The notes under the pieces were generated by a model. It did not search any database and was not told where the DNA came from. It saw only the letters and a program-made list of their open reading frames with translations. From assembly GCA_037042915.1 (NCBI GenBank), contig CM073199.1, positions 3,658,001 through 3,722,000 of the forward strand: DNA of 64,000 nt, written 5' to 3'. The stretch's first letter is position 1, and each line of letters begins with the position of its first letter. Shown in pieces: positions 10,175 through 56,759 of this stretch. The translations under genes were made by a program, and so were the position numbers. This DNA is from Auricularia sp. M13 (lineage: Eukaryota > Basidiomycota > Agaricomycetes > Auriculariales > Auriculariaceae).

Positions 10175-10366
10175 ATATTCTAGAAGTACATCGGTTGACG
10201 CAATGCAAGGCCCTGAGTGTTCTCGGAAAAATTTCTCGCGACTCTTCCCTCCAAAAGCTCCACGGCCAACCTCGGTGCCGGTCACTGATGCGGCAAGTTA
10301 AGTAGCGGTCTAACTATCACAGTTACATGCCCTGCCTACGGCGCACGACATTGGATACGCATATTA

Positions 10367-10581: not shown

Positions 10582-10636
10582 TATTGCTCGGCATGAGTGA
10601 AGGCCACCATCCCGGATTGCGGGATCGAGTACTTAC

Positions 10637-12723: not shown

Positions 12724-12942
12724 TGTGAGAAATGCACCAGTATAGTGGAGGGGTAGCGCAAAGGGCGCGCATAGTCTCAGACTCGTCTAGAACTTCTCAG
12801 TAGTGTTGCTCTAGTTTTTTCATGCTCTGATCATTCCCCTGAGTACCAGAAGCTTATATACGACAGTATGTACATGGGAATAGATTCAGTCTCATCCCCC
12901 ACGACTCACGGTGTGCGACAAGTTAGCCCTCAACTTTGCACA
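12724..12942 (+). repeat. 5' LTR of the copia element
   Basis: 219 bp, TG...CA ends, preceded by the target duplication CATGC. No difference from the 3' LTR was found by eye. Confidence 0.95.
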
Positions 12943-12954
12943 GGTTATGAGCCC
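12943..12954 (+). promoter_or_regulatory. Copia primer-binding site matching initiator tRNA-Met anticodon arm
   Basis: GGTTATGAGCCC starts at the first base after the LTR. Its complement GGGCTCATAACC is the anticodon stem-loop, with CAT anticodon, of eukaryotic initiator tRNA-Met. This fits priming by a cleaved 5' half-tRNA, known for copia-type elements, rather than by the tRNA 3' end. Confidence 0.75.
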
Positions 12955-13021
12955 CGAGCTCTGACTTGTTGCCACACCAATCCTCAGCCAAGAACACCAT
13001 CTTCGATAACATCTGCTCATT

Positions 13022-16000
13022 ATGTCTACGAGAGACGACCATTACAAGATCCCTCAGCTCGAGGCTAAGGGCGGGAATTGGTTTGCGTGGAAGACACGCA
13101 TGAGGACGCAGATGCGCATGAAGCAGTGGCTTCTGCACATCGACGACACGTTCACGGCACCGCAGCACCCGGCAGAGGCGCCGGGCTACGTCAAGGCGGA
13201 CGTAGAGGCGGACACAGCGAAGCTCGCGCTGTACAAAGCGGAACTCCGGATCTGGCAGGAATGGACTGAGACCGACGCGAAGTCCCTCAATCACATCGTA
13301 TCCGGTCTTCCCGATGCACTGATGCATGAGGCGGATAAGCATACCACGGCGTTGCAGATGTGGAACTGGCTCACCCGTGAATACGAGACGAAGTCGGTCT
13401 CATTCGGCGTCACCATCCGCAAGAAGCTCAACGCGATGAGCTGCGCAGCGGGCGGCAACGTTCGCGAGCATTTGGACGCGATGGACAAGCTGAAACTTCA
13501 GCTGAATGCAGCAGCGGCTGTACCCATCGCGGACGTGGACTTCGAGGCGATGGTGATGGCGTCAATCCCAGACGAATACTCGAACTACGTTGCGCCTATC
13601 AAGGAGGCCGCGAAACGCGCGGGGAAGCCACTCACCGTCGATGAGATCCTTTCGTCGATCCGCGACGAGTATGATCGCCGTACGCTGCCGAGTGCGACTT
13701 CGAGTGCAGCCACAAGGGCGAAGGACGATGTCGCATTGGCGACGAAGGATAAGGGCAAGAAGCCCGCTTCCAAGTTCAAGTCGACGAAGCCCAAGAGGAA
13801 TCTGTCGAAGGTCAAATGTTTCCGTTGCGACAAGATGGGGCATTACGCACGTAATTGCCCGGACCTCCCAGGCAGCGACGATGACAGTGACAGCGACAGC
13901 AACGACGAGGCATCCAAGAAGTCCAAAAAGTCGAAAAAGAAGTCCAAGAAGAAGGATTCAGCGCGCGCCCTTGTTACGAAAGACGAGGAAGTACTTGCCT
14001 GGATGGCTATCCCGGACGACGGCGCCCTGGATGAATTGGACGACCACGTTGCTTTGTGCGAACAGATCTTCGATGGACTGGGAATTGAGCATGAGGACGC
14101 GGGAACTGCAAACGAGTGCAGCGACTGCGAGACTTGGCTGGATGACGTTGCCGACCACGATAGCACGGCGCTGGTCGGAGAAGAGGTCTCAGTGGGTGAC
14201 CTGGCCATGCTAGCAGGACGGAAGGGACTCAACGATGCTGAGATCGTTGATTCCGGCGCTACACGCCACATCTCCTCGTTGCGATCGCGGTTTGAGACAT
14301 TCCGCACGATCGACCCGCATGCCATCACCGCCGCGGACGGCAAAGACTTCTTCGCGATTGGTGTTGGTGACTACGCGATTGTTCTGCGAGCGATGAGCGG
14401 CGCAGAACGCAAGATCACGCTGAGAGACGTGCTCACGCACCATCATTATGTTGCACCCTGATCTCAGTCGGACGAATCGACAGGGCTGGCCAATTTGTCA
14501 TGTTCGGCGGCGGGCAATGCAAAATCTACAACGACTCACAAGAAGTAGTCGGCGTCATCCCGTATGTTGACGGGCTGTACCAGATTCTGCATCCCGGGCA
14601 TGAGCGTGTGCTCTACGCCCGCGCTGGAAAAGAGCCATTGACTTGGATGGAACTACATCGGATACTCGGGCACGCGTTTCAGCGCGTCTGCGAAGAAGCA
14701 GTTCGAACGAGGCGGCTTACTTGGTGTCAAAATCGATCCCACGTCGAAGCTGTTCGATTGCGAGTCTTGCACGCTCGGCAAAATTACACCAGCGCGCATT
14801 CCGAAGGTCCGTGAGGGACCGAGGTCTCAGACGTTCGGGAGCGCTGGTATTCCGACATATGGGGACCAGCGCCGGTCACGCCGCTTGAGGGCATCGCTAC
14901 GCAGATATCTACGTTGAGGATAAGTCTCTGTGGCACATCCGTTCTTTTACCGTCGCAAGAAGGAGGCGGAGGAGAACGTGACTTGAGTTTGCAGCAATGA
15001 TGGACCGACACCATGGCAAAGTCTGGCAATACTGGATCACCGACAATGCCGGCGAGTATCGCGATGAGAAGACCAACAAGAAACTGCGTCAGCTAGGTAT
15101 CAAGCACCTCTATACGACGCACGACACGCACCAGCAAGTGGGTGTCGTGGAACGCTTCAACAGGACCGCACTGGAACGAGTCCGCGCCTGCATGCACGCT
15201 GCAGGACTCCCGAAGTTTCTATGGGCAGAGTGCTTGCGCCCACGTCTGCTACATGCTGAATTCCGTCAGTACACAGTCGCTGAACGGATTGTCGCTGCAC
15301 GAAGTGCGTCGGCGTTCCACGCGACATCTCGGGACTGCCGGAATGGGGCGCACCTTGCTACGTCAGTGATCCCGGCAACAAGCTGGAAACGCGCGGGACG
15401 CGCGTGTACTGGGTCGGCTACGATGAAGAGACCAAGGGCAACCGAGTCTACTGGGACAAGAAGCGGAAAGTCACTTCTGAAATGGAGGTCAAATTTCTGA
15501 AGAAGGAAATACCGGAAGGGACAGAGCCTACCGACATATCCGATTTTTTCTGGCCAGAGGAGGACACAGGCAACGATGGAAGCGACGATCCCGACTCTGG
15601 AGAGCCAGGGGAGGGTGACGAGAGCGATGGCTCGTCCGTCGCGGGATCAAACGAGGTCCCACCGGCTCCGGCTTTGAAGATCCCGGCACAGCCAATCCCG
15701 GAGACGCCCAAACGGGAAGTCCGAGCACCGGCGCCGCCTGACGCCCCGAAGCGCAAACGGCAGATGGATATTGTTGACGAGAGCAACATCCTCGAGGGGC
15801 AGCGCGAGCGCAAGCCCAGCCGATACGTGCGCGACATCGAGTCTGGCAAGGGAACAGCAACCGGTCAAGGGCGCAATCCGGCGCTGCCCGTTGGCTTGCA
15901 GATCCCCGGCGCGCAGGCGTCAACAGACAAAGCGAAAGTCGCTGTTGCATCAGCACAAGACATCTTTGAGCACGATGATTTTGCCGCGGCACTGGTGGCC

Positions 16001-17605
16001 AGCACCACGAACTTAGAAGGACTTGAGCCATCTAGCGTTGACGAAGCCCGCAAACGGCCTGACTGGCCCAAGTGGAAGGAAGCTTGTGAGCTCGAGATTG
16101 CTGCCATGAAGGACCGGCAAGTCTATGAGCTGGTCAAGCGGCCCTCCGATCGACGCGTCATCGGTTCCAAGTGGGTATTCCGCGTCAAACGAGACGCTCA
16201 GGGCAAAATAGACCGGTACCGTTCACGACTGGTCGCGCAGGGATTCACGCAGGAACCTGGCGTCGACTACGTCAAGACAACGTCTCCTGCAGCGTGCATG
16301 GAGACAAATCGACTGTTCCTAGCCGCGGCCGCATACTTTGATTTCGAACTGCATCAGATCGACTTTGACACTGCATATCTCAATGGGATTCTCGACGAGG
16401 AAATATTCATGGAACAGCCACCTGGTTTTGCAGATCCCAACCACCCAGCGACGGACTATGTCTGTCGACTGCTGCGAGCACTTTACGGCTTGAAGCAGGC
16501 AGGAGAAGTCTGGTATCAGACTTTGTGCCAGGCTATGCGCGACATCGGATTCAAGCGCTGTGAATCCGACCTCAGCTGCTTCGTGCGACACCTCAAGACA
16601 ACGTTTCTCATGTCGGCAGTCAGCACTGATGACTGTTTACTGGCTGTGCCACGAGGGCATCTCAAAACGTTGGCAGCATTCAAAGCGGACATCGGTTCAC
16701 GGTACAAGATCAAAGATTTAGGCGATGCGCGCTGGATTCTGGGCATCGAGATCACCCGGGATCGCGAGGCGCGCATATTGCGCCTGTCTCAAAGGCTGTA
16801 CATTGACACGATCTTGCGGCGTTACGGGTTTGAGGACGCGCGACCGCTGTCGACACCGTTGGACCATCAGGTCCAACTCAGTACCGAACACTGTCCGAAG
16901 ACCGCTGAGGAGTTCGCCGAGATGAAAGGAGTACCGTACCGCGAGATGATCGGCGCAGCCAACTATCTTGTCCGCGGAACTCGACCGGACCTGGCAATAG
17001 CAGTCAGCGTGCTGTCGCAATTCTTGGAAAACCCGGGTCCTGCTCACTGGCGAGCCCTGAAACGGCTTTATGCCTACATCAAGGGCACAAAGGACCTGCA
17101 GCTCACCTACGGAGAGACGGAGCATGGCCTGGTCGGATTTAGCGACGCCGACGGCATGTCTCAGTGGCACCGCCATGCGGTGTCCGGTTACGTCTTTATG
17201 TGGAACGGCGGAGCGATATCGTGGTCCAGCAAGAAGCAGGACATCGTCTCCTTATCCACAACCGAAGCAGAATATGTTGCTCAAGTCCACGCTTCACGAG
17301 AAGCTCTGTGGCTACGCAGCATCATCGGGGAGCTGTTCGAGCCACTGCATGAGCCGACGATCATCTACGCCGACAACCAAGGCGCAATTCAGCTTGGGAA
17401 TGAGTACCAATTCCATCCCCGCACCAAGCACATTGATATTCGATATCATTTCGTGCGCTGGGTTGTGTCTGAAGGAATGGTCAAACTCGTGTATTGTCCC
17501 ACGGAGAATATGGTCGCCGATGCGCTCACGAAGGCTCTGCCTTCACTGAAGGTCAAGCACTTCGCGTATCAACTCGGGCTTCGAGCGATACGAGCTCAGG
17601 CTTGA
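13022..17605 (+). pseudogene. Copia gag-pol, broken
   Basis: Gag begins at 13022 and carries a CX2CX4HX4C zinc knuckle near 13820-13860 followed by an acidic Ser/Lys-rich stretch. The aspartic protease motif DSGA is near 14250. The integrase core with DNAGEY and GVVERFNRT lies near 15040-15180. The copia-type reverse transcriptase spans about 16130-16900 (KWVFRVKRDAQGKIDRYRSR, YGLKQAGEVWYQ). RNase H runs to the end (YADNQGAIQLGN near 17370). The region is a fossil with about five interruptions and should not yield a full polyprotein. Confidence 0.9.
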
Positions 17606-17613
17606 GGGGAGGG
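17604..17613 (+). promoter_or_regulatory. Copia polypurine tract
   Basis: The purine run GAGGGGAGGG lies immediately upstream of the 3' LTR, overlapping the end of the pol coding region. This is the usual place for plus-strand DNA priming. Confidence 0.8.
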
Positions 17614-17832
17614 TGTGAGAAATGCACCAGTATAGTGGAGGGGTAGCGCAAAGGGCGCGCATAGTCTCAGACTCGTCTAGAACTTCTCAGTAGTGTTGCT
17701 CTAGTTTTTTCATGCTCTGATCATTCCCCTGAGTACCAGAAGCTTATATACGACAGTATGTACATGGGAATAGATTCAGTCTCATCCCCCACGACTCACG
17801 GTGTGCGACAAGTTAGCCCTCAACTTTGCACA
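17614..17832 (+). repeat. 3' LTR of the copia element
   Basis: 219 bp, identical by eye to 12724-12942 and followed by the second copy of the target duplication CATGC. Confidence 0.95.
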
Positions 17833-17883
17833 CATGCAAGCCCAGAGGATTTCGTTCGGCACCCTGCTTGTCGCGTCGGTCAT
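17833..17883 (-). pseudogene. F-box family B gene (B1), first 17 codons
   Basis: Read on the minus strand this gives MTDATSRVPNEILWACM, matching MTDETTRVPNEILWACM of the neighbouring copy B2. It ends exactly at the copia insertion site, and the target duplication (GCATG on this strand) holds the last bases. Together with 12718-11427 it accounts for the complete F-box gene. Confidence 0.9.
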
Positions 17884-18487
17884 GAGGGAAAGCAGCGATG
17901 TGCGGGGATTGAATATCGGGCCGTCGCCGGTGGCCCGGAGCGTCCGGCGGGAGCCCGATGGAATTCCACTGGTAAGCCTTCGTTTAAACCAATTTTAACC
18001 CAAGCGACGCGTCCAACGGCAATAGCCATTCTATGACAGAGCAATAGGCAGTATATTGACCGCCTTTAACTTCAAAAGCAGGAAACCCCTGCATCTCAAC
18101 AACGGCCAGATCAGGAGCTCCTGCCGCATCTCGGATTGTAGATGATAGCTTAATCTCGAAAGCTACAGATAACTGCACAGAGTGCACGTTTCGAGGCCTC
18201 TCTGAGTCAGGCCAGAAGACGACTGTGTCAACTTACAGTATATGCGAGGGAAGGACCGCAGAGCGAGGGTATGATCGACAAGGTTGCCGCTGCACTGCAC
18301 TTATGTACCCTGGCTGAAAATCGCGCGTGAGATACCTGGGTTCTCACGCGATGAAGGCAGCCGTATCTGAGGTTCTATTCGGCAAGACGATAACCCAGCC
18401 TTAGTGTACAAACGAGAAAATGATTCGTTACTTACTCCACCATTCGTTCGGCTATGATTCACTCTCTACCTCGCGCAGCACGTGGGA
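17884..18487. other. Upstream region of B1, similar to that of B2
   Basis: The first 200 bp closely resemble 19932-20130, upstream of B2 (shared atgagggaaagcagcgatgt / atgagggaaaggagcgatgt and the following gcggggattgaatag-like stretch). The promoter was therefore duplicated with the gene. Unlike B2 and B3, no proline-rich partner gene follows. A short NmrA-like relic lies at 18075-18124. Confidence 0.6.
18075..18124 (+). pseudogene. Trace of the NmrA last exon
   Basis: gagctcctgccgcatctcgg followed by attgtag reads ELLPHLGL and stop. It differs at only two positions over about 28 bp from the clearer NmrA exon 7 relic at 30400-30545 (KLLPHLGL, stop). Upstream similarity fades quickly. The match is short, so this is a tentative relic. 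Confidence 0.35.
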
Positions 18488-19931
18488 TCACATCAGAACA
18501 CCGACATGGTCCAAAGGCATCTGAAGTAGATTAGTATGACCAGGAAGAAATGTGCAGGTATGCTGAGCTCACGCAGTTTAGTATCTCGGAGGAGGCATCG
18601 CCGTGTTCAATCGATCGAACGATGTCAGGCGCAAGACCGTCGGTGGAAGAAAGTCTTGTACCCTCCAATCTAACGACAATAGGAAACGACGCGCCGTTCA
18701 GAGAGCGCGAGATGAACGAAGTCAGCATCTGAGGTGCCAGAGCATTAGCCGGCTGCGGATGTCCAGACCGCAGCGTCAGTTTCTGGAGTTTCGGACTGTG
18801 CAGCTTCTGCACGGGCGAGCTGCCCATGATATGGGCGGCGTCAGAGCCGGAAGGGAAAAGGACACGAAGTCCCGTAAGAGCCGGAAGCGACAGGGCGAAT
18901 GGCATGATAGTCTGCCAAAGGTGTGCCGGTAAGGATAGACCTACGATCCTCGCGCTGATTTCGGTGTTCAGGATATCGCACAGCGCAGGCGCATCGCAGA
19001 ATGTGAATAAACGGACGCGCGAAGTCGACGGCTCGATGACCTGCACGGAAAACGCATCATCGGAGCGCCCCTCTTGTTGAACGTGGATATCAAGTGGCCC
19101 GTCCATGTCGTCCATGAGGGCTGAAACAGCATTCTCGTCTCGATTTGCGGAGGTATATACCACATGTTGTATTCGATGCATGGCCAACAGACGACGCATG
19201 TTTTTCGGCATCGCGCAGTCCAGACGGAGGGTGAGCCGACTGAGTGCGCCGAATACGGAAGGATCGATGATCGAAGGGTCGTCGATGTAAGGACAGCCGG
19301 TGAGCGTCAGATCACGGACCGAGCCTAGCGCCTCGAGCAATGCCTGGACGTCAAACAACTCGTATTCGGCATTGCACGAGTATCCGAACTCTAGCTGGTT
19401 CAGAGAAGGAAATACGCCGGTAGGCACATGTCTGGTGTGGATATTCTGAGTGGCCAGACGAGAGAGCTTCGGCGCCATGCCCATCAACAGTGAAGATGGT
19501 ACGCGAGGAACGATCCGGTCAATGTCTACACGGAGAGTGAGCTGTTCGAGGTTATTCGCCGGATAGCACAGAGCATCAAATAGCCAGCCGCTGTGGCGAT
19601 AGCTCACGCGAAAAACCAGAGACTGTATGTAGGCGAGATGACCCGTAATGGCCTGCAAGACTGCAATGAGATTGTCTGGATTGGCATCAACGAGCGTCGC
19701 ATCGACGGTGATGAGGCGGAGCCTGGTCCTCGACAAGCGTAGCAGAAACCACTCTGTGGCCGCGTCAGATGACGAAGCGATTGTGAGGAATTTCCAGTAT
19801 TTTTCGTGGTTAATAGCAAGCTGCTGCCACCGTCTAGACATGCCCATAAGGTGGACTATGTCCATAAGCGACAGATAGTCCATGCATGCCCACAGGATTT
19901 CGTTAGGCACCCTGGTTGTTTCGTCGGTCAT
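18488..19931 (-). CDS. F-box protein, family B, intact (B2)
   Basis: Main exon 19931-18573 and probable last exon 18520-18488, joined across a 52-nt intron (GTGAGC donor, TACTAAT branch, CTTCAG acceptor), give 463 residues. If the intron is retained, the frame stops at 18531 (466 residues). The F-box is at residues 8-50: VPNEILWACMDYLSLMDIV, then SRRWQQLAINHEKYWKFL. The C-terminal 400 residues are LRR-like (LEQLTLRVDI, VRDLTLTGCPYIDDP, LQKLTLRSGH). Role inferred from the family: substrate adaptor of an SCF ubiquitin ligase. The start is head-to-head with a proline-rich gene at 20270, as at B3. Confidence 0.88.
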
Positions 19932-20269
19932 GAGGGAAAGGAGCGATGTGCGGGGATTGAATAGCGGCCGTGAGCCGGTGCCCTGGTGGAATTCCGCGGG
20001 TGAAACTTCATTTCAACCAATTTCAACCCAGGCAACACGTCCAAAGCTGATGGCCGTTCAAATACAGCGAAATGCGCAGTAAATTTACTCCCCTGAACTT
20101 CAGAAATATTAAATCTTGTACACGGCAGGGGCAACCGACCCAACTGGAACCGCGAAAAATTCGTCCTCCCCCGCTGTTTGGCGATTATTGTTCTCCGTGT
20201 GCCGCCCGGTATTCCTTTAAAACTCAATAGGGTCCTATCAGCTCCCCATCGCCTTGACCTCCTTCCATC
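19932..20269. promoter_or_regulatory. Divergent promoter between B2 and proline-rich gene P1
   Basis: 338 bp separate the two start codons, which face away from each other. The same head-to-head pair recurs at 28176-28577. No individual promoter element could be assigned. Confidence 0.5.
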
Positions 20270-20817
20270 ATGAAGAAAACCCAAGCGCAGAAATCGGTGA
20301 GTTTCTTACGACTCGCTCGCTATCCCATATCCTGTAGGACCCAACTGAGATCTAGCTTAAGACCTCGCCCGCATCTCCAAAGGGCCCAACGCCCCCTCGT
20401 GCTCGCCCTGCACATCAGACGCCGCCAAGTTACGCTGCTGCTGCTGCGATCTATCAGCAGCAGACACCAGCTCCTGGAACTGGATTCCAACCACCGCCAA
20501 AGGGCTACTTCACTAATCTATTCCGCGCTGCTCCACCACCAGCTCAGCCTTCTCCGCCTTCCCCAGCTCAGGCGCCCCCGCATGCGACGACTCAGGCGTC
20601 CAGCGCCAACACCAATCACACGGCTTCGCCGCCATGGGCTCTCGCCTACACCAACGCACACAGTACGTCCGCGATCAATGTAGGTAGTATTTCACTGATT
20701 TACTCGTAGCGTACCCCTGCAATGTGTGCGGTCACGAGTTCAGGTCTGGCACTGTCAGGTGCCTTTGCGAAGTGGTTCGTCAACATTACTCACCGACCAT
20801 CTATTTGTCTCCGCTGA
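20270..20817 (+). CDS. Small proline-rich protein P1
   Basis: Exons 20270-20296, 20356-20679 and 20710-20817 give 152 residues. They comprise a 9-codon first exon (MKKTQAQKS), an Ala/Pro-rich body (PKGYFTNLFRAAPPPAQPSP, then SPPWALAYTNAHST) and a C-terminal piece with SGLALSGAFAKWFVNI. A paralogue with the same layout is at 27588-28175, so selection on this frame is likely. The second intron would be only 30 nt; if it is not removed, the protein ends a few residues later at a stop conserved in both copies. No family is recognised and no signal peptide is evident. Divergent from F-box B2. Confidence 0.6.
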
Positions 20818-21133
20818 CTCGTGCTCAAGTCTCACAAGTCAGGCTGAATTTGTAGCTGTCTCCGGATGGCATGCTACTCCCCCATCTCGCGCTGGCGGGT
20901 TTTTTTGCTACACAGACCCGGTTTCATGTACTTGAATAGACCGTGTTGATCACGGTAACCAATATTCACAATGCAAAGATCATATGACGTTTGGTTCCAT
21001 GTCGCAGTGAGCGCGTGAGAGGTCACTGAGACGGTGCGATGCCCAAGTTACATCCCGAGAGCTCCTTACAGTCCGCAACGCCGTGCATGCTTGGTTGGCG
21101 GGAGCGCTTCAGTCGATCTCATAAACCGGAAAC

Positions 21134-21640
21134 ATGTCCTCAGCCATCAAAACGGTCGTCGTGCACGGAGCAACTGGCAAACAAGGTCAGTGCTACGGTC
21201 AACTGTTTGGATCGACGGTGATAGTATTGGCGTTATATGCGGGCGGCTCGGCCATTCGCCCTCTGGCGCGCGCGGGATTCAGCGTTTGCGACGCCTTTCG
21301 AGACGCCAGCGCCGACAAAGCTCGCGGGCTGGCCGCCATTCCTGGAGTCGAGCTTGTCACAACCAACCTCGACGACGTCCAGACGTTCGTCAAGGCGTAC
21401 ACTGGCGTTGACGCGGTTCGTTCTGGTGCCTATTTGCTCCTGGTCTATAGGCTAACGGTCCGCAGGTGTTCTCCGTTACGGCTACTGGTCCGAAGGACCA
21501 GACGCAGGGAAAGAACACGGCAGATGCTGCGAAGACCGCGGGCGTTCGCCACTTCGTCTGGTCCGCGCTCGAGTCGATCACAAGACAGAGGACAAGCTCG
21601 CCGTGCCGTTCTACGATCCGTGACTGCCAACGGAAGGTGC
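21134..21640 (+). pseudogene. 3'-truncated NmrA-like copy (NmrA2)
   Basis: It starts like the intact copies (MSSAIKTVVVHGATGKQ) and continues with the glycine-rich fold and PGVELVTTNLDDVQTFVKAY. Exon 3 begins FSVTATGPKDQTQGKNTADA and reads to HFVWSALES. The acceptor expected near 21240 lacks AG. Homology stops soon after LAVPFYD, so about half the gene is missing. The remaining sequence to about 21780 does not resemble NmrA. It sits next to proline-rich gene P1, mirroring NmrA3 and P2 on the other arm of the inverted repeat. Confidence 0.85.
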
Positions 21641-22131
21641 GCCGGCCTGAGCTAGAGGATTTCTGTCTTAATTCCATTTCCAGAACAAGCCCAGGATACG
21701 AGCATGTGGAACGGGTTCGCGAGCTGACATTCTGGACAGAGAGTTCCGTTGGCCGCGCAAAAAGTCCGGGGTCCAGGTAGTGAGCAGGAGCCTGCAGAGC
21801 CGTAATGATGCATGATTAAACTGAATCTTGAAGTCGAATCTGGAGGTACCGCGCGGTTATATTATAGGGTATGAGGTCTGCGAGCGGCGGCATGGGCATT
21901 GAGAGCAATTTTGCAAGGATTTGAAAGCTTTCTGACTATTTTACTTACTTGTTTATGAAAAATTAACGCAGGTATACTTGCTTTCCATGCTCTGAACGCG
22001 GTGTTTACGTTAAAACCAGTTTTCAAGTGTGCGCGAGCACCGAGCGGAAAGAAAGGCGTACGGGATTCTCCGGCCCTCGTGCGCTCCTTTCCTCCGCGCC
22101 ACACTCTACTCAGTTGGAACCGGCGCGCGCC
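21641..22131. other. Intergenic, left edge of the unique core
   Basis: No coding signal was found. The end of NmrA2 similarity and the start of the unmatched central genes lie here, so this is one boundary of the inverted repeat. Confidence 0.4.
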
Positions 22132-23411
22132 ATGAGCGTGCGCACCAGCTCCGCTGAGATATCCATAACAGACCGTGCGCTACTTACTGTCAGTACCCGC
22201 GCCGGCCCAGCTGATATAACAACGTGCCGGCAGCGGAAGTCCTTGTCTCGCTGCTAAACGACCTGCTCGTCGTGCTCTCGCTGGAACAAATTAAACTGGA
22301 GTCACCGCAGGACCTGACCCCTTCGCTGCTGCTCGCGATGCTCGAGTCAATGCTGCGCGCCCGGCTACCTATCGCCCAGACAACCCGCGACGCCCGTACC
22401 AGAGCTGCCAGAGTTGCCGCAATGAAGGTCTTCCTCGCTGTCCTGGAAACGGATATAATGCAAGAGGACGTGGGGCTTGCCGATGTCGACCCGCGCCGCC
22501 TGGCCGACGGTGAATGGGCCGAATGTGTCTTTGTCGGCGAGCTGCTCGTTTGGCTTGCGCGCGATATGGGCTATCTTCCCATGTCGCCGGCAGATTTGGC
22601 CCAAGAGCGTAAGGCAGAGAGCTCAAGCATGGCGCTAGGCGGATCGACATCGACGACGAGGCGGCCACCCGTGCACGGGCACAAAGACAGTGTGACGTCT
22701 ATGCGCACAGCGGACAGCAACCCTTTCGTCGTCAGGCCGAGACCACGGCGGCCCCAGCAGCTGGACGCGTCATCCAGCTACGCAGTCCGCGATGCATCGA
22801 CCAGCCACAGATCGTACTCGCCACCGAGCCCCATGCCGTCCTCGCATCCCTCGCGGACGCCGTCGCCGACGACAGACAGTCTCGGGCTATCATTCCATCC
22901 GCCGCGCGCCAGCTCACCAGCTCGGGTTGAGGATGATTCTGAAGAGGAGCACGAGCTGGACGAGACACAGCTCTGCTCGTGCGACCCCGACGCGTCGTTC
23001 GCGAGTAGCGCGACGTTCTGCACGTGCTCGCATGCTGGCGACGAGCACCCACCAACTTCTCCACCCGAGCGCCGACGAGGGTCCACGCCTACAGTTGCCA
23101 GCGGGCGACCATCTCTGTCAGGCGACAGACGAACGCCTGGCCGACGTCCATCTCTCGATCCACCATCGAGCTCAGCGACGACGCCCGTGCGTTACGACGG
23201 CTGGATCGAACGCGTTGAGGGCGATGTGGAGGCGTTCGAGGCCGCGCGTCGTGCGTCTGCGCGCAGCTTGGGCGCGGCGCGCGGCCGCTCTGCGCCGGGT
23301 ACTGTGCGTAATCCCACGCGCCACGTCTCGCCCGCGCAACACACGCTGGCGTTGATGAACGAGCGCGCGAGGCTGCTTGGTGAGCTAGCCAAGATCCGGA
23401 CCAAGCCATGA
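22132..23411 (+). CDS. Conserved-type protein, helical N-terminus and Ser/Pro-rich tail
   Basis: Exon 22132-22192 (MSVRTSSAEISITDRALLTV) joins exon 22234-23411 across a 41-nt GT-AG intron to give 412 residues. This start was chosen because the long second exon has no ATG near its beginning. Residues about 20-140 form a compact helical domain (VLVSLLNDLLVVLSLEQI, then ECVFVGELLVWLARDMGYLP) that reminds me of the DUF5745/calponin-homology-like N-terminal domain of basidiomycete proteins; that match is from memory. The rest is low-complexity Ser/Pro/Arg with an acidic patch (DDSEEEHELDE) and a short C-terminal helix. It lies in the single-copy core between the inverted arms. Function unknown. 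Confidence 0.7.
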
Positions 23412-23626
23412 ATCACGGAGGCAGCATCTTGCGCTGCGTAGACCCCGATGTGTATCTGCAATATCTTTATTTCTGCTGCTTTGCTCGCGTTGATTCCTGT
23501 TACTTCTTGGAGAAACTAGACTTCTTCTCGGGCACAATAAGTCCCGGTTGACACCTCGAGTTGGATCAGCGAAGTTTGACCCTGTGAATTTCAAGCCCAG
23601 CCGCTTGCGCTTCTTCTAGTACCAGG

Positions 23627-25023
23627 ATGGCGGCCCTTGAGACGGGTCCTTGGCTGCCCTTTGAGCTCGTCTCAAAGGTTATGGACTACGTGAGCATTCC
23701 AGAGCTCGTCCAGCTTTCGCACGTCAGCAGCGGCTGGCGGCTCACGCGCATCCGCATTTCTGGCGCGACATCGAGCTGGATACCACCAAGTCTGCAGCGC
23801 TGGACTTTTTCCTAGCTAGGCTCTCCACGCACACGGCTTCGATCAACATGGACGTCGCCTGCCTTTCCTATCAGCTGACAGACAAAGATCTTCGCCGGTA
23901 CTGTTCGGTTGTGCCGCCTGCGGTCCGCCGCAACCTATTTCGCACAAATCATCTCAGCATTAAAGGCACGGACAACCTTTGCCCATACGTCTGTGATGCG
24001 CTCGTAGAGCCCGCCCCAATGCTGCAGGAACTTTCCCTCATGAATTTCCTGGAAGATGCGAACATACTATCCGTACCCGAGACTTTCCTCGGTGGGTATG
24101 CGCCGAAACTCAAAAAAGCACATCTCTCGTATGTCGATCTCCCTTGGCCAGCCCATGCCGTCACTGCATTCCAAAACATCGAATGGCTCTACTTCACATC
24201 CGAGCGGGAAGTCGCTGTCCCCGACATTCTTGCCCACTTCCCTGCGCTGAAGCATCTCCGCGTCTGTTTGTTCGCGTGCGTCGAGGCTGACGCGCGCATG
24301 GGTTTTGCCGACCGCACTCTGACCACGCTCGACGTTGTCGTGTGGAACGAGACCTATACTCCGTTCTTCTCTGCGTTTCACCCTCTGGATCTCGCGGCCA
24401 TTAGGCATCTCACATGCTCGGCGTCTGGCGCTCGCCCTTGGATACACACACTCCTCAGTGTGCTCAAAGGTCCCCTGACGCTCACTATCCGGGATCACGG
24501 GTTGATCGACGTGAGCGTCGAACTCTCCTCAGCGGATTCCGCACAGGCACGCACGCGCACGTTCCACATCGATCAGTCGCACGGCCAGGGTCAAGAAGTC
24601 GTACTCTGGCTTTTTAGGGCCGAACTGCTCACTCGCATCTCTCATTTCCGGCTACTCTCGAAGAACGCTAGTATCGTGCCCGAGATCGGCGACGCGCTGC
24701 CTGCATGCGAAACTGTTGAACTCTGCTTCGACGGGTCGGCGGGTCGCAGCCATCCGCTGATTAGGCGACTTAACTACAATGCTCTCCGCGAGCCGTACGC
24801 CCTGCAATTCCCTGCTGTTCGGACTATTATCTGCATTCCCAGCGACGACGCGCCCGTTGGCCTTGCCGTTTCCGCGGACGATCTTTCTGCCCTTTTGGCG
24901 AGAGTTATTCAGGATCGTCCTTCGCCTCTCGAATTCATCGAGCTTGCAGGTGTGCAGCTCACTGGAGATATACAGGCGCTTGAGCGTGAGTACGGCTGTA
25001 CAGTCAGGCAGCGGAAATTGTAG
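23627..25023 (+). pseudogene. F-box family A gene with a frameshift in the F-box (A5)
   Basis: The Met at 23627 opens a good F-box start (LPFELVSKVMDYVSIPELVQ, then SSGWR). Near 23736 a few bases are missing and the frame changes. The expected AHAHPHFWRDIEL then follows in the frame that stays open to 25023. That part holds the whole LRR region (FLGGYAPKLKKAHL, LAHFPALKHLRV, ELLTRISHFRLLS) and the tail FIELAGVQLTGDIQALEREY. It is either freshly inactivated or translated from an internal Met (for example 23848) without an F-box. Closest relative of fragment A4. It occupies the core of the inverted repeat. Confidence 0.75.
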
Positions 25024-25734
25024 ACGTGGTCAATTATGGCTGTCATTTTGCAATACCCTCAGCTCTGTTAGTCGCTGTGCATTGGGTTGTCAGGGTCCAA
25101 ATTGACGAGGTTCCATGGCCAGACACACAAATGGGAAAACCCTCAAACCAACTCAAAACAGTCAGGATTAGCATGATATATATGAAAGGGAGTCGATATG
25201 GTGAACTGCAGAAATGCGCCCCCCTTGATCGCGGCGCTCATAATTTTGCGCGAGCTTCAGTTCGGCAGCATCAGCGTGCGGCTGCAACACTCCTCAGATA
25301 CCGGCGCTGACGAGCTCGCGCTCAACGGAAAATCACTGCCGCCTATCTCGCGCTCTGATCGACGCTGGGTCGATGACCTTGACGCGGGATCAGATTGAGC
25401 AGTTGCTCGTGACACCGCGGCAAGACGGAACGCGTTTACCAGTCAACCCTGTTAAGGACCGGGATTCTCATACGGAATGCAATGACGATGTTCCAGCCGG
25501 GTTGGATGACGCAGAAGAGATGCCGGATGTGCTTGTTTCTGCGGTAGAATAGGTTATAGGTACGCCGATGTCTCATACGTCATATTCAAGTGAGATACCC
25601 ATCGATCTCATGACATTCTTCTCAAGGCTAGATTATATTGGCTTTTTCGAGCGCAGACCTCGCGCCGATAAATGTGCCAGCGCGTGCTTGGTACCTCGGA
25701 TTGACTATATACAGTCAATGGAGGCCTTAACGGC
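25024..25734. other. Intergenic with one unassigned small frame
   Basis: A plus-strand frame ending at 25552 (from Met at 25373: MTLTRDQIEQLLVTPRQDG...VLVSAVE, 59 codons, open further upstream) looks protein-like but is unassigned and may be a gene remnant. Otherwise no signal was found. Confidence 0.3.
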
Positions 25735-26977
25735 TCATTGCAACTTCCAGTGCGGTAGAAAGACCTCGCGGACGAAGCTCTCGACCGATGCTGGCTTGAA
25801 TCCGTACTCTGCGCCCGCGGCTCTGTCAGAATGACGATCATTCCGCGAATCACGACACTCACGCTCGAGCAACGGGTCGGGATACTCCTTATCGCGATAC
25901 ATTCCGTACTCGCCACAGTACTTCCACACTCCGTCCAACCACTACAGGTGACAGCTGATGAGCTAACTGACGCTGAGACAGAACAGGTGACGGGAGACAG
26001 ACCTGCGAGATCTGGTCCTGTCCGAACTTCACTGGCGCGCCGACGCGCGTCTTGCGTCCTGAGACCTTGGCGACAATTTCGGCTTGCTCTTTAAGCGTCA
26101 TCCAGTGGGGCGCTAGGATGACCTTCTTGCCGAGGAAGGCGTCGGAATGCGAGAGGATCGTCTTGACGGCTTCTCCGACGTCGACCTCGATGCGCGCGAA
26201 CGGCACTGTCAATGCAAAATGGTGAGTATGAGAATAAGCATTTGCATTTTCACGGAGACGCACGTTTCTTATCCGCATTGGCTATAGAACCAGACGTAAT
26301 CTCGATGGTATCCTCCTCGGGAATGTACCTCGAGAAGCCGGGGAAGTATACCAGATCTAACCGAAGTGAGCAGCCATCATACTTAATGAGCCTAAAGCAT
26401 GAGAGTAACTCACTCTCAAGGAAGATAGGGGTGTAAAGAAACGTGGCCGGGATACCGATGGACAAAATGTGCTCCGTGATTTCGTCCTTATCATCGTAGA
26501 ACGGCACAGCGAGCTCGCCGTTCGTCTTCTTCGTGATCGACTCGAGCGTAGACCAGACGAAGTGACGCACGCCTGCGATCTTTGCAGCATCCGCCATGTT
26601 CTTTCCCTGGGTCTGTTCTTTCGGGCCAGTTGCCGTCACTGAGAACACCTGATGACCGTTAGCTCATCGACCAGGAGCAAGTAGGCACCAGAACGAACCG
26701 CATCAACACCAGTGTACGCCTTGACAAGTGTCTGGACGTCGTCGAGGTTGATGGTGACAAGCTCGACTCCCGGAATGGCAGTGAGCTCGCGAGCTTTGTC
26801 AGCAGTGGCGTCTCGAACAGCGGCGCGCACTCTGAATCCCGCATGCGCAAGCGAACGAACGGCTGAGCCACCTGAGAACCGTGTCATTTCAGCATCATCC
26901 TACGCATCTAGCCGGACGAATTGACCTTGTTTGCCAGTGGCTCCGTGCACTACGACTGTCTTAATGGCTGAGGACAT
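25735..26977 (-). CDS. NmrA-like family protein, seven exons, intact (NmrA3)
   Basis: Exons on the minus strand: 26977-26926, 26871-26699, 26648-26414, 26356-26264, 26205-26003, 25941-25863 and 25808-25735, giving 302 residues. Exon lengths (52, 173, 235, 93, 203, 79, 74) equal those of NmrA1 except for one extra codon in exon 4, which supports both models. The dinucleotide-binding motif HGATGKQGGSAVRSL opens the Rossmann fold, followed by GVRHFVWSTLESITKKTNG and VPFARIEVDVGEAVK. Expected to be an NAD(P)-binding regulator or redox sensor of the NmrA/HSCARG group. It sits in the right arm of the inverted repeat beside proline-rich gene P2. Confidence 0.9.
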
Positions 26978-27587
26978 GTTTCTGTCTTGACTGGAGCGCT
27001 TGCAGTCTCGACTACGATTCGAGTCTTTTTATCGAAACTTCCTGCCACCTTCCTCAGCTGCGTCCGTACCGGGTCGACGCGCTGACTCAGCCTGACTGAA
27101 AGCGTACAGGTCGTTACTAAAGCGGAAACTGATGTGGGATCTGGTTTATTAAGCTCTGTAATTCCTCTGCTTGCAGATGACAAAATGAGAAGCGCGCGTC
27201 GTGAGCGCTCGACGGAAGCTCAGAAGCTCGTTCTCCGATCATGCCGGTTTCACGAAGGTTCCCTGCAGTTCTCAATTCCCAGGTCACTATTGTTGTTGGT
27301 GACAATGGATCTCCGGGATCTGTCTAATCTTCGCCACGATCCCGCTAACCAAGCTTTCACGAGGCTTTCACACGAGTAGGAGCGCTCATGATGTGGCTAG
27401 GGCATTCCAACGTCTCAGTGCCATCTCACGCGCACGAACATATAAGCAAACATCTTTCACTGTCATCAACGGCCTACATGAAACCTGAGTCTGTGTATCA
27501 AACATACGGCCAGCGCGAGAGAGGGCATGAGCAAGCGATACGGAAACAGCTACAGAATCAACCGGACTTGTGAGACTTGAACAGGAG
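26978..27587. other. Intergenic between NmrA3 and P2
   Basis: About 600 nt. The part next to P2 matches the stretch after P1 (27386-27587 against 20818-20935), so the repeat includes the 3' flank. No further gene was seen. Confidence 0.45.
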
Positions 27588-28175
27588 TCAGCAGAGACAA
27601 ATAGATGAATGGTTATCGATGTTAACGAACCACTTCGCAAAGGCACCTGACAGTGCCAGACCTGAATTCGTGACCACATACGTTGCAGGGGTACTCTACG
27701 AGAAAATCAGTGGACGAATACCTACATTCATCGCGGGCGTACTGTGTGTGTCGGTGTAGACGAGAGCCCATGGCGGCGAAGTAGTGTGATTGGCTTTATC
27801 GTCTGATGCGTGAGTCACCAGAGAGTGTCCTCTCGTATTCTGGGGCACCGTTGCTGGCGCTGGCGCAGCAGTCTGAGCTGGCGCTGGCGCACCGCGAAAT
27901 AGAGCCGTGAAGTGTCCTTTTGGAGGGGGGTGACCTCCAATTACCTGCGCCTCGGTTCTTCTCTGATACTCGGTAGCCGCAGCCTTGTAGTCTGGGCGGG
28001 TTTGCGAAGATGGAGGCGGCCGCGGGGGAGTGGGTGGATGCCAGGCGCCAGGAAGGGCAGACCCCTTAGGGCGCGCAGGGTTCGGCTGCGAAGAATACAT
28101 ATAGGTTAGAACATCAGCGGGCCTGATTAGAGTGCAGGGGAGATGGACCGCATCCGCCGTTGCTTTTCTGTTCAT
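27588..28175 (-). CDS. Small proline-rich protein P2
   Basis: Exons 28175-28149, 28085-27726 and 27695-27588 give 164 residues: a 9-codon first exon (MNRKATADA), a Pro/Ala-rich body (PPPKGHFTALFRGAPAPAQ, then SPPWALVYTDTHSTPAMN) and the tail SGLALSGAFAKWFVNI, which is identical in P1. The first intron has a CTAAC branch site and TTCGCAG acceptor. The second is 30 nt, as in P1; if it is not removed, translation ends at a stop in the same relative place in both copies. Family unknown. Head-to-head with F-box B3, 402 bp between starts. Confidence 0.62.
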
Positions 28176-28577
28176 GGTAGAAGGACGATGAAGGACGGGG
28201 GGGTGCTTGACCAGTTCTTGACCTTATGAACAACTGGAGGGTATAGTAGAGAGAAGCATGATGTCCAAACAGCGGGGGAGGACCAAAATTTTTTCCGGAA
28301 GATGCCATTGTAATTCTTCTCGGTCGCAATGGTCACGGAGCAGCTGGACGCACCGAGAGAGATCGATAGCCGGATCGCGAGTGTAATCCCGAGAGACATG
28401 CTCCTGCCAGTTTGACACCACGTCTGCCAGTGAGTCTATCCGTACATAAATTGCGTACCGAGATGCACTGGCATAGGTAGTCGGGGATGATTCGTCCGCT
28501 ACCGCGGAAATCCGCCGAGCTGTTGGCACTTCCGGCGCTGCGGACCGATATTCAAACCCCGCTATCTCACCCTTCCC
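28176..28577. promoter_or_regulatory. Divergent promoter between P2 and F-box B3
   Basis: 402 bp separate the outward-facing start codons of P2 and B3, the same pairing as B2/P1. The duplicated unit therefore includes a shared regulatory interval. No single element could be assigned. Confidence 0.5.
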
Positions 28578-30056
28578 ATGGCTGACCTCACGACGACTGT
28601 GCCAAACGAGATACTGTGGGCTTGCATGGACTTCATTTCACTCGTAGACATTGTGCACCTTATGCACCTGTCTAAACGATGGCAGCGGCTGGCTATCAAC
28701 CACGAAACATACTGGAAATACCTCACCATCACATCCCCGTCTACCTCGGCCACCGAATGGTTTCTGCTGCGTCTATCGAGGTCAAAGCTGCGCTTGATAA
28801 GCATAGATGCAAGGATTAATGACGCTGAGGACTGCTACGTCTGCATAATCTTGCGGGCAATCACAGCGCATCTTTCTCACCTGCAGTCTCTGAACTGCTG
28901 TGTGCGCTACCGGCACAGCGGCTGGCTCTTCGACGCGTTGGAATACCCTGCATATAATTTAGAACGGCTCACTTTGCGTGTTGCGGTTGACATGGAGGAT
29001 CTCAATATTGCACTGCTGCCGCGGACGCTCATGATGCGAACGGCCCCTCGACTGGCGCGGCTTTCTGTACAGAATATCTCCCTGGAGCGCATGCCAGTTG
29101 GAGCCTTTCCTTCGATAAAGCATCTCGATTTTGGTTACACGGTCAAATACGAGTTCATCGACGTCCAGGTGTTGCTCGAGGCGCTAGTCTCCGTCCGGCA
29201 TCTCACGCTTACTGGCTACCCTCGCGTAAAGGACCCCGATGCCATCAATCCCTCCGTATTCCGAAGACTTGACTTTCTTTCTCTTTATCTGGGCTGCTCG
29301 TTACCGGAGAATATGCGGGAGCTGCTTCAGATGCACTCGCTGCCGCACGTCCTCTGCGCGCGCGCAGATCCATTCGAGGTCTCATCGCTCATGAATAGCC
29401 TCGACGGGAAGCTTGACATGCACATACATCCAGAAGAGGATGCCGACGACGTCTTCTTCATTCATATTCTTGAATCGGCGACCTCACGCGTCCGGTCGTT
29501 CGCGGAAAGCACCCAGTGTTACGGTGCCAGCCGTGACGATGGCATGGCGTGTGATGTCTTATTGCGCACCGACATCACCGCTCGGGTCGTCTTCCTTTCG
29601 TTAACAACGACACTCTGGACAACAATTGTGCCATTCGTCCAGTCGCTGCCCGCCCTGACTGAACTGCGCTTAGTCATTGCTCTCGACGACAACGCCTTCT
29701 TGGAGACCTTGTCCATACCGAAGCTACACTGTCCAAACCTTCGCAGATTGACGATGCGGAGTGGTGATTCTCCGGCGCCAACTACTGTGAAAGCTGAGGC
29801 GCTCACCTCCTTCATTTTGCGTGCTTTGTCCAGCGAGTCCTTTCCTATCGCCGTCGCCTTGGACGGTGCCCGGCTATCTTCCGCGGCAGAACTACCTCCC
29901 GACCTGATTCGTTCGATGGAACAAGGCCATCGATCCACACAAATGTGAGTGCAGACCAATCTACGCATCCTCGCATGCTCACATGATCTGGCTACCTTGT
30001 CAATCAGAAAGGACTTTTGCTTTAGGGAACCAAGTTTCGTGCAATATATACTCTAG
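28578..30056 (+). CDS. F-box protein, family B, intact (B3)
   Basis: Main exon 28578-29944 plus a probable last exon 30008-30056 (GTGAGT donor, ATCAG acceptor, 63-nt intron) give 471 residues. Without splicing the frame ends at 29948 (456 residues). The F-box is at the N-terminus: VPNEILWACMDFISLVDIV, then SKRWQRLAINHETYWKYL. The rest is LRR-like with family landmarks (MRTAPRLARLSVQNI, VRHLTLTGYPRVKDP, PALTELRLVI, NLRRLTMRSG). It is a mirror-image partner of B2, forming the outer gene of the right arm of the inverted repeat. Presumed SCF substrate adaptor. Confidence 0.87.
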
Positions 30057-30084
30057 ATTGAGATTGTTGCATGTGTACTCTACA

Positions 30085-30245
30085 TATCTCGTTGCCTGAC
30101 TGTACACCCGTACTCTCGTGCTCAAGAGCCCCTATATCTCCGGTGATCTGCACGCCGGAGAGCTCGATGACATCGAGAGGAGAGGCGAGCGAATGACTCT
30201 CGCGGCGGAGCAGAAACTTCGAGGATAATCCTTTCCGTACCCTCG
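30085..30245 (-). pseudogene. Relic of the F-box family A 3' end (A6)
   Basis: On the minus strand SPLDVIELSGVQITGDIGAL matches SPLEFIELAGVQLTGDIQAL of copy A5. The end of the tail (YGCTVRQR in A5) continues after a small frame change. Nothing 5' of this survives. It lies just downstream, in minus orientation, of the NmrA relic at 30400-30545, the same order as NmrA1 and A2. Confidence 0.65.
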
Positions 30246-30399
30246 TCAAGGCCCTGTCATGCTCCTACTGTAGATGGTCGGCTTTCTCGTCTGACGCGGA
30301 CAAGCGTGGCAACCAGGAATTACACGCGACATATGTTCATTTCATCTGTTGTTACCATACATGCTTTCTTGACACCGCTGTTAGAACTAGTCGCTACAA

Positions 30400-30545
30400 C
30401 CCGAGATGCGGCAGGAGCTTCTCGCGCACAAAGCTCCCGAACGCGGCTGCTGGAATCCATACTCTGCAGGCGGGTCAATAAGCATTAGGGAACATTCAAC
30501 TGCATTCCGACTCGGACTCACTCTCGAGCAGCGGCCCGCGAGACC
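30400..30545 (-). pseudogene. Relic of NmrA exons 6-7 (NmrA4)
   Basis: On the minus strand the end of exon 6 survives as PLLE followed by a GTGAGT donor. After an intron-like stretch, exon 7 begins EYGF and ends FGSFVREKLLPHLGL and stop, in a shifted frame. Intact copies have EYGFKPASFESFIREMLLPH (NmrA1) and EYGFKPASVESFVREVFLPH (NmrA3). The rest of the gene is gone. Confidence 0.7.
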
Positions 30546-34095: not shown

Positions 34096-36247
34096 CTAAT
34101 GCGCGGAAATGCGTGAACCCGCGGAGGGCGTCCGACGCAGCGCAGCGGAGTGAGCATGGGCAACCCGACGCAGCGACGCGCGCTCGGCCGCGCTCTCCGC
34201 GGCAGAATCGATCACCGGGATCTTGGCCATGACGTCCGCGCGCAGGCTGGAGAGCATGGTCTGCAGCGCGCGCGTGCGGACGTACGCCGCGTTGAGCTGC
34301 TCACGCAGCAGCGCGTCGTCGTCGCTGGAGTCGTGCAGGATCAGCGAGTGGTAATGCGCGCGGATGTCGTCCAACAGCGGGATCTCCGACGCGGGGTCGC
34401 ACGCGCGCAGCACGAGGTGCCGCAGCGGCGCGTGCATCGTCACGTAGTCGCCGCTGGGAGTGACGTAGGTCAGCGCGAGACGGCACAGCGCGTCGATGAT
34501 GTCCGACGCCTGGGGGACGGACGGGAGCACCGCGCGCAGCTTCGTCAGGTTTATTCCTTGCGGGAGGTACGCGATGACGCGCAGGACGTGCAGCGCCATC
34601 GTCCCCGCGTTGACGAACTCCCATGAGCGGAAAGCCAGGTGGACGATGGCGGCGAGCAGCTGGTACTCCCAGCCGCCCTGCGCGTCGTTGTGGTCGCGCG
34701 CGTCATGCGTGAGGCGGTTGGCCTCCTCGGCGAACTGCGCGAGCGCTTCGTCAGCCTTCCAGCAGCTCTCCCGCGCGACTTTCGCGAGGAGGCTGATGGC
34801 GAGCGGGTGGTAGTTCAGCGCGCCGAGGAGTTGGTCCAGGCCGTCCTCGTCGATCCAGCCGCGGTAGGCTGCGGTGAACGTCTCGCGGGCAGCTTCGAAG
34901 TCCAGCTGGGGAACTTCGATCGTTTCGTAGGCGAGGTAGAACGGTAATGACGAGCTGCGCGCCGTGAACAGCATCACCACCGAATCGATCGCGCCAATGT
35001 CCGCGATGAAAGCCGCGATACGCCCGGAATCCTGCCCGGCCTGCAGAATGATGTCCACGCCGTCCAGCACGAGCATCGCGGGGCACGACTTGAGATGCTG
35101 CACAATAGCAATGGCAGCGAGATCATGGGGTGCATGCAAACCTAGCACGCGACAGACGTGGCCGAGGAACATGCCCAGCGTGATGGGCACCACGCCGCCG
35201 GTGTCGAGCTCCTCGAACGAAAGGAGGTACCGCTGCGCGCCGAAGTTCTGTTGGACGTCGTCGTGCTCGAGCACGGCGAGCGCGAGCGCCGTCTTGCCGA
35301 TCCCGCCAGTCCCAAGCAGCGCCATGTGGCGGAAACTCAACAATCCGCTGGTGATCTCAGCAATCTGCGATTCGCGTCCGTGGATGACTAGGCGCTCGCG
35401 GTACCGGGGAAGACGCTGCGAACCGCTGCGTGCAATTGTCAGCTGTAAATGCAAACAGCTTAACTGCCCGCTAAGGTTAGAGTACATACAATGCCGCGCT
35501 GGACGGACCGGCCACAGTGTCGCGGATGTCCTGTTTCGGACAGTTGAGCCAGGACATTGCACAGCGCTGCGTAGCTAAAATGAAATGCTATACCTGTATA
35601 TTCTTGTGCATTTGCATAATCGTCGTGTTCGCCATGAGCAAGAGGTTTGTCTGAAGTGCGCATAAGCCATTGACCGTGACGAGCATCCCCGCTGCACGCA
35701 CGCTGAAAAGTCGCTCGCAGCGCGCCAGGTCGTGCCTCCACTCTCCAATGGTTTCTTTATCTACATAGACGGAAACAAGCCGCCGAAAGAATCGGCGTTG
35801 CGTCCGCTGTGCCAGCTCCCGATGAATGCGAAAGGCGGTACTGTCAGTGAGGGGGTGCGCGTCAGCGTAGGAGGGTGAAAAAGGCGCCAACTGACTCTCT
35901 GAGGTCCTCGACGGCACTCATGAAGTCCATATTATGTTCCGCTTGCGGAACATGCATCGCGCGCTGCAGGATATCGGATATCGCGACGCATTCGCGGACG
36001 ATATCCGCGAAGTCCGCTTTGTTCTTCAACGTGTCCTAGGCAGCCTCTGGTGATTCACGAGCTGCAAGGACGTCTTAAAGGTATAACGCACTCTGACTAT
36101 GCACACAAGTCCTTCCAGAGAACTCAGAGCAACGCAGGCAATATCGACCGGGACGGCAGTCTTGGTGAAGCGGATGATGGACAGCGCGTACTCGAGCGCG
36201 CGCCGGCTTCCCTGCTCCGAGACGTCGGGGAGCTTCGTCCTCACCAT
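34096..36247 (-). CDS. STAND/NLR-like ATPase (NB-ARC or NACHT type), five exons
   Basis: Exons 36247-36098, 36035-35896, 35840-35594, 35530-35490 and 35425-34096 join in frame to 635 residues. The N-terminal 190 residues are the helical domain often seen before fungal STAND modules (KNKADFADIVRECVAISDIL, then RRFFRRLVSVYVDKETIGEW and IQDIRDTVAGPSSAA). The nucleotide-binding domain has the P-loop LLGTGGIGKTALALAVL at about 240 and a Walker B-like strand AMLVLDGVDI. It continues through helical and winged-helix-like regions to a stop at 34096. No clear WD40, ankyrin or TPR array follows, so the sensor region is short or degenerate. Such proteins switch signalling on upon ligand binding and are linked to self/non-self responses in fungi. 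Exon 4 (41 nt) is the least certain. Confidence 0.75.
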
Positions 36248-42849: not shown

Positions 42850-42880
<31 letters not shown>

Positions 42881-56744: not shown

Positions 56745-56759
56745 TTTTAATGAGTTTTT

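Follow-up and report, generated by a model that had tools for sequence, protein, structure and literature searches.

The window, a 64,000-nucleotide stretch of DNA from Auricularia sp. M13, contains a mirrored array of F-box, proline-rich, and NmrA-like genes. The left arm holds B2 (minus strand), P1 (plus), and N2 (plus), and the right arm holds N3 (minus), P2 (minus), and B3 (plus). B2 (18531 to 19931) and B3 (28578 to 29948) are open reading frames (ORFs) for intact F-box B proteins of 466 and 456 aa. B2 passes the Pfam cutoff (PF00646 score, 23.8 versus 20.5), whereas B3 scores slightly under the curated cutoffs (19.2 versus 20.5 for PF00646 and 22.1 versus 24.3 for PF12937). P1 (20270 to 20780) is a small proline-rich gene with a C-x2-C...C-x-C end and a three-exon model. 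Its partner is P2 (27625 to 28175), and the predicted exon layout is conserved between the two. N3 (25735 to 26977) is an intact NmrA-like gene of seven exons and 302 aa. N2 (21134 to 21617) is a truncated pseudogene. Its homology ends at 21617, the acceptor AG of N3 intron 1 is missing, and there is a 4-base gap in exon 3. The N3 exon-3 ORF (70.2) and the N2 ORF (28.1) both pass the curated PF05368 cutoff of 27. The order, orientation, and coordinates of the three-gene arms given in a preliminary description hold, but the left arm does not contain three whole genes.

The core between the arms had been regarded as single-copy. This is true of a 395-aa ORF (22224 to 23411, plus strand), which has a single match in the 52.1-Mb genome and no Pfam match. 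It is not true of A5 (23639 to 25023, plus strand), an A-type F-box gene. Compared with A1 and A7, its F-box shows a 7-base gap. A5 matched 40 pieces of the genome, itself included, and A-type relatives also lie at the outer edges of the mirrored block. In the Pfam F-box search (PF00646 and PF12937), A1 passed the cutoff and the A3 frame had no match.

The mirror had also been confined to a block of about 10 kb, but the pattern extends outward. A6 (30083 to 30213, minus strand) is the tail of an A-type F-box gene, lies tail-to-tail with B3, and was found by blastn, tblastn, and HMM. Beyond it is N6 (30394 to 30540, minus strand), a relic of the final two exons of an NmrA-like gene, recognized by its motif, its exon-intron layout, and an HMM match at 30397 to 30450 (i-E, 0.028). 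On the other side, a motif scan found N7 (18115 to 18141, plus strand), a 27-base relic of an NmrA C terminus (ELLPHLGL stop) that the HMM scan at i-E 0.05 missed. N7 equals the N6 tail at 27/29 bases (window-wide E, 2e-6). With the point where the aligned B C terminus ends as reference, the distance is 441 bases to N7 (18582 to 18141) and 449 bases to N6 (29945 to 30394). Measured from the B stops, the distances are 390 (B2 stop at 18531) and 446 bases, so the equal spacing hinges on the reference point. No A fragment was visible between N7 and B2. The DNA 3' of B2 also resembles that 3' of B1 (score, 187, exceeding all 300 shuffles), which means that, on that side, B2 does not pair exclusively with B3.

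Farther to the left are direct copies of the same families. N1 (6107 to 7372, plus strand) is an intact NmrA-like gene with HMM matches and a seven-exon, 301-aa model, built from the sequence, that has no inner stops. A4 (10625 to 11152, plus strand; tblastn and HMM) is a C-terminal A-type fragment that lies tail-to-tail with B1. Most of the B1 coding region is an ORF at 11423 to 12723 (minus strand), with 62 to 64% protein identity to B2. B1 is interrupted by a young LTR element (12724 to 17832, plus strand), presumably of the Copia type, with LTRs identical at 219/219 positions and a 5-base target duplication, CATGC. The B1 5' end and upstream region resume beyond it (17833 to 18113, minus strand) and are homologous to 19881 to about 20105.

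The relic order echoes a block. N1, A2, A3, and A4 point forward to the reversed B1, the N7 tail points forward to the reversed B2, and the forward B3 meets the reversed A6 and N6 tails. With these A-type and NmrA tails outside B2 and B3, a block of NmrA-like gene, A-type F-box gene, opposed B gene, and P is present more than twice. An HMM scan at i-E 0.05 covered window positions 1 to 36000 and three 10-kb flanks and revealed no N, B, or P copies beyond those described. Reversed controls gave no matches, and the B and A models cross-matched each other's genes.

Inverted blastn alignments confirmed the mirrored gene order and relative orientation. The B arms aligned in two pieces, 18597-18966 with 29930-29567 (64.8% identity) and 19251-19967 with 29261-28545 (67.6%; E, 2e-59). 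The P arms aligned over 20488-20930 and 27932-27475 (78.2%; E, 2e-105), the P-N spacers over 21011-21106 and 27433-27337 (74.2%), and the N arms over 21129-21617 and 26982-26493 (81.2%; E, 8e-129). The pieces are thus 65 to 81% identical, and the top 100-column stretches reach 87%. All of these values lie below the 95% line that the preliminary description had drawn for a biological duplication. An assembly fold-back, in favor of which nothing was found, is exceedingly improbable and was ruled out by this divergence, because the aligned pieces differ at 19 to 35% of sites, with gaps and frame breaks, and the P-N spacer measures 198 bases on the left versus 492 on the right. Similarity outside the coding exons, proposed as a further check, is present in introns and in the P 3' flank.

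Like a palindrome of the human Y type, the locus has inverted arms flanking a spacer. However, the arms are not near-identical through conversion. The longest exact match between them is 42 bases, the second longest is 21, and the spacer exceeds 4 kb. A recent palindrome with active conversion was ruled out by arm identity. The present sequence offers no support for the proposed capacity for conversion, hairpin breakage, and rapid copy-number change. Nor does the evidence support conversion or palindrome instability as ongoing processes; past exchange within the inner part of the arms is possible.

The arms differ in divergence along their length. Synonymous divergence (dS) is 1.44 for B2/B3 (bootstrap, 1.14 to 2.01), 0.58 for N2/N3 (0.38 to 0.82), and 0.79 for P1/P2 (0.55 to 1.24, a range that overlaps that of B2/B3). 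Judged by these values, the arms do not look like the product of one event. For comparison, dS is 0.64 for the tandem pair B1/B2 (0.50 to 0.82), 1.38 for B1/B3, and 1.20 for N1/N3. Fourfold sites are equal at 52/133 in B2/B3, 39/66 in N2/N3, and 30/54 in P1/P2, and the pooled inner sites (69/120) differ from the outer pair (Fisher P = 0.004). As to possible tracts of past exchange between the arms, the inner tract is less diverged than the outer, and a permutation test on the longest run gave P = 0.012. Most, but not all, of the noncoding DNA repeats the contrast. Equal sites number 40/47 in the P intron, 120/149 in the P 3' flank, and 44/50 in N intron 2. N intron 1 has just 32/52, and conservation is weak in the P 5' half. 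The "young" inner tract is therefore patchy, and constraint could explain part of it.

A single inverted duplication of the entire B-P-N block, with gene-specific rates and constraint producing the unequal divergence, would account for the collinear mirrored homology over three genes and the outer relics. It would also fit the poor, B-like conservation seen in N intron 1 and across most of the B-P spacer, and the comparison of P1/P2 alone with B2/B3 is borderline (P = 0.051). We consider this reading rather unlikely, because the P intron, P 3' flank, and N intron 2 are 81 to 88% equal, yet the DNA upstream of B2 and B3 past 40 bases aligns no better than shuffled sequence (P = 0.62). The single three-gene duplication described earlier is doubtful: at synonymous sites, the divergence of the outer pair is about double that of the inner two, and more block copies and relics lie around the structure.

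Comparison with Auricularia subglabra, the closest species found, bears on the same question. We used a five-row F-box tree, because a tree of eight paralogues from the M13 genome gave long branches and included three short pieces (L008, L009, and L011). B1, B2, and B3 clustered separately from both A. subglabra B proteins with support of 93/95, which is not full, and grouping B3 with either protein was rejected (p-AU, 0.036 and 0.027). From this grouping, B1 to B3 appear to postdate the split from A. subglabra. In A. subglabra, one contig of 643,094 bases seems to carry four NmrA-like proteins and two B proteins. In summed branch lengths against the A. subglabra proteins, N2-N3 accounts for about 0.16 of about 0.32 and B2-B3 for about 0.97 of about 1.28. 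The N pair is therefore relatively younger than the B pair, which also argues against one event. A possible but less than even reading is that the arms exchanged sequence after forming. Conversion would have homogenized the inner P-NmrA part while the outer F-box pair drifted, the NmrA pairs of each species would group by species through concerted evolution, and the orphan P, which occurs nowhere but in the two arms, would have survived because of the palindrome.

The similar dS values of B1/B2, P1/P2, and N2/N3 could also reflect a younger inverted duplication of a 3-kb B-P-N segment (B1-P2-N3 and N2-P1-B2), followed by an inversion that placed the older paralogue B3 beside P2. The B2-P1 spacer is consistent with this, since its B1-like half ends near 20105-20148, its P2-like half begins near 20141-20155, and the halves abut. 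However, N7, downstream of B2, is far closer to the N6 tail beside B3 than to the N1 tail, and an extra inversion is required. We consider this scenario improbable.

We suggest that the locus is probably a mirrored pair, old and specific to this lineage, within a locally duplicating cluster that is decaying, and that the inner P-N part of the pair was copied again later. The repeating unit would be an NmrA-like gene and an A-type F-box gene facing a reversed B-type F-box gene, then a forward P and the next NmrA, and one block inverted relative to its neighbors would yield the mirror. The mirrored B pair may have formed after the split from the A. subglabra lineage. The inner P-NmrA part would later have been recopied between the arms, around when B1 and B2 split, through either gene conversion or another round of inverted copying. 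Subsequent decay would have left the N2, A2, A4, A6, N6, and N7 fragments, the A5 gap, and the LTR element in B1. The mirror layout itself most likely has no function and is a by-product of duplication.

Tandem gene clusters can evolve by birth and death. Like such clusters, this locus has neighboring paralogues of unequal age, and it has pseudogenes and fragments (N2, A2, A4, A5, A6, N6, and N7). Unlike them, it has one inverted block, and four unrelated gene families move together. In origin-dependent inverted-repeat amplification, short inverted repeats lie at the junctions. This process offers a route to interstitial inverted copies, and its model is one of interstitial inverted triplications (PMC4689423). 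No third inverted copy was found here, and these junctions are too old to serve as a test. PMC5490193 describes gene palindromes from inverted duplication in Folsomia candida and cites 17 in Adineta vaga as well as those of the human Y. All share with this locus several genes mirrored on one chromosome or scaffold. By contrast, the Folsomia Dscam2 palindrome has a dS of 0.2 versus 0.58 to 1.44 here (PMC5490193), and the present arms are partly dead and lie within a larger cluster that also has direct copies. Searches found no paper on F-box genes and inverted duplication in basidiomycetes and nothing on topic among the papers listed for Auricularia and F-box. An eLife paper (PMC8893723) lists F-box proteins with other developmental genes. 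Within the literature searched, no paper on the locus was found. Within an expanding F-box cluster, a striking mirror layout can be built up layer by layer, and gene order alone may suggest a single event where divergence indicates otherwise. The two halves of this mirror are old and partly dead and seem to differ in age, and the cluster reads as one more outcome of local gene duplication, not as an active genetic palindrome.

The P gene may be restricted to the lineage of this fungus. A protein search for P relatives gave 188 candidates, none reaching E 10, and the M13 genome yielded only four pieces of P1/P2 and one chance-level piece (E, 0.42). The identity of the B-P spacers (0.70) is inflated by gaps, and shuffled controls back the box region on the P side together with some 40 bases close to B. 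This box, 41 bases at 20155 to 20195 in the B2-P1 spacer, is mirrored by an inverted match at 28251 to 28291, and its central 19 bases occur just twice genome-wide.

Self-comparison of the window confirmed the mirrored gene order given in the preliminary description. The F-box genes B2 and B3, the small proline-rich genes P1 and P2, and the NmrA-like genes N2 and N3 form inverted repeats in the claimed order. The core open reading frame between the arms (22224 to 23411) has itself as its sole genome match. In a global alignment of the two arms, identity per 100 columns was 52 to 80% in the B region and 44 to 56% in the B-P spacer. Identity was 81 to 87% at 20618 to 20917 (the 3′ half of P and its flank) and 85 to 87% at 21284 to 21580 (N exons 2 and 3). 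The longest exact arm-to-arm run, 42 bases, exceeded the permuted expectation (p = 0.012; 5000 permutations). We conclude that the mirror is real and old, and that the duplicated cluster around it is decaying. Similar gene palindromes have been described in other systems (PMC5490193). That this palindrome can drive conversion, breakage and copy-number change does not follow.

We compared the divergence of the inner and outer parts. The NG86 dS of B2/B3 was 1.44, that of B1/B3 (B1 is a third F-box B paralogue, left of B2) was 1.38, and that of B1/B2 was 0.64. The values were 0.58 for N2/N3 (114 shared codons), 1.20 for N1/N3 (N1 is an NmrA-like gene further left), and 0.79 for P1/P2. The bootstrap ranges of B2/B3 and N2/N3 were separate, and those of P1/P2 and B2/B3 overlapped slightly. 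Fourfold sites were identical at 52 of 133 positions in B2/B3 versus 69 of 120 in N and P pooled (p = 0.004; N separately, p = 0.010; P separately, p = 0.051). Inner non-coding identity was high in the P intron (40/47), the P 3′ flank (120/149) and N intron 2 (44/50), with N intron 1 as the exception (32/52). No B2/B3 upstream similarity was detectable beyond 40 bases, a distance at which B1 and B2 upstream DNA are clearly alike. Therefore, the dS, fourfold and mostly agreeing non-coding contrasts indicate that the inner part is younger than the outer part or has been overwritten. The single duplication event proposed earlier is thus doubtful, and the mirror was probably put together in layers.

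Relics lie outside both B genes. Outside B3, on the minus strand, are an A-type F-box tail (30213 to 30083) and the two final exons of an NmrA gene (30540 to 30394). On the B2 side, the gap between B1 and B2 holds an NmrA tail (18115 to 18141) that equals the right-hand relic at 27 of 29 bases (window-wide E = 2e-6). Its ungapped score was 25, and none of 200 shuffles exceeded 12; the HMM scan did not pick it up. Measured from where the aligned B C terminus ends, the left tail is 441 bases away and the right relic 449; measured from the B stop codons, the distances are 390 and 446 bases. The DNA between NmrA tail and B is weakly similar on the two sides (score 231, matched by 1 of 300 shuffles), and B2 downstream DNA also resembles that of B1 (score 187, beating 300 of 300 shuffles). 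The left-side order, including the A-type F-box genes or fragments A2 to A4, is N1> A2> A3> A4> <B1. Together, this order and the outer tails point to a recurring block, N> A> <B P>. The block is present in several copies, one of which is inverted and forms the mirror.

The closest proteins to the window genes are from Auricularia subglabra. Four A. subglabra NmrA-like proteins match N3 at 57 to 72% identity, and a fifth, on another contig, at 46%. B3 had two matches among the 7995 best-sharing database candidates scored, both A. subglabra F-box proteins (42 to 47%). These two and the four NmrA-like proteins are probably encoded on a common 643,094-base contig. In trees, N2 grouped with N3, and the two nearest A. 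subglabra NmrA-like proteins paired together (98/95 each). Alternative positions of N1 were not rejected (p-AU = 0.154 and 0.125). B1 and B2 were sisters with B3 next, in a group that excluded both of the A. subglabra B proteins (93/95), and joining B3 to either was rejected (p-AU = 0.036 and 0.027). Given this separation, the mirrored B pair probably arose after the split from A. subglabra. The genome (52.1 Mb, 14 contigs) holds 93 scored B3-like pieces, from 257 initial candidates, of which 44 are on this contig (C7; 3,876,945 bases), where the window occupies bases 3658001 to 3722000. Of these 44, 41 lie within 550 kb of a contig end, which places the cluster in an F-box-rich stretch near such an end. 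Two closely similar NmrA-like genes lie at about 3745 kb on C7 (N4) and about 4212 kb on C4 (N5); N4 forms a head-to-head pair with an F-box-like gene.

By our exon reading, P1 (20270 to 20780) and P2 (27625 to 28175) have a three-exon layout in common, with a first exon of 27 bases; both have a C terminus with cysteine pairs. Both reach YPCNVCGHEFRSGTVRCLCEVVR, and P1 continues beyond it. No further P copies were found in the genome, and no relatives outside it among 188 database candidates. A genome search for the 19-base heart of the P-upstream box, tolerating up to 2 mismatches, gave exactly two hits; its reversed control gave one.

Gene integrity varies. N1 and N3 give clean models (301 and 302 residues). 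N2 is a pseudogene: homology stops at 21617, intron 1 lacks the AG acceptor that N3 has, and there is a 4-base gap in exon 3. Compared with A1 and A7, the A-type gene A5, between the arms, is 7 bases short in the F-box; aligned with A3, it has gaps of 1, 1 and 5 bases, and A3 has one of 1 base. A-type relatives lie at 3614 to 3617.6 kb of C7, one 58% identical to A5, versus 37 to 38% for A1 and A3. B1 is interrupted by an LTR element (12724 to 17832), which we take to be of the Copia type, with identical 219-base LTRs and a CATGC target duplication. Its LTR has six genome matches including its own two, five at 100% and one at 96%. Directly before the truncated A4 is a putatively MITE-like, 219-base inverted hairpin (10365 to 10583), which is 84% identical to its reverse complement; related sequence occurs elsewhere in the genome (43 pieces from 17 scored candidates). 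An open frame at 34099 to 35574 has NB-ARC/NACHT-like matches under Pfam cut-offs, and a low-complexity tandem repeat (42849 to 43794) reads as proline/glutamine-rich in one open frame. A second LTR element, presumably of the Gypsy type (45621 to 57781), has 757-base LTRs with two differing sites and is flanked by CTCC on each side. An F-box-like open frame (57745 to 58995) begins within its right LTR.
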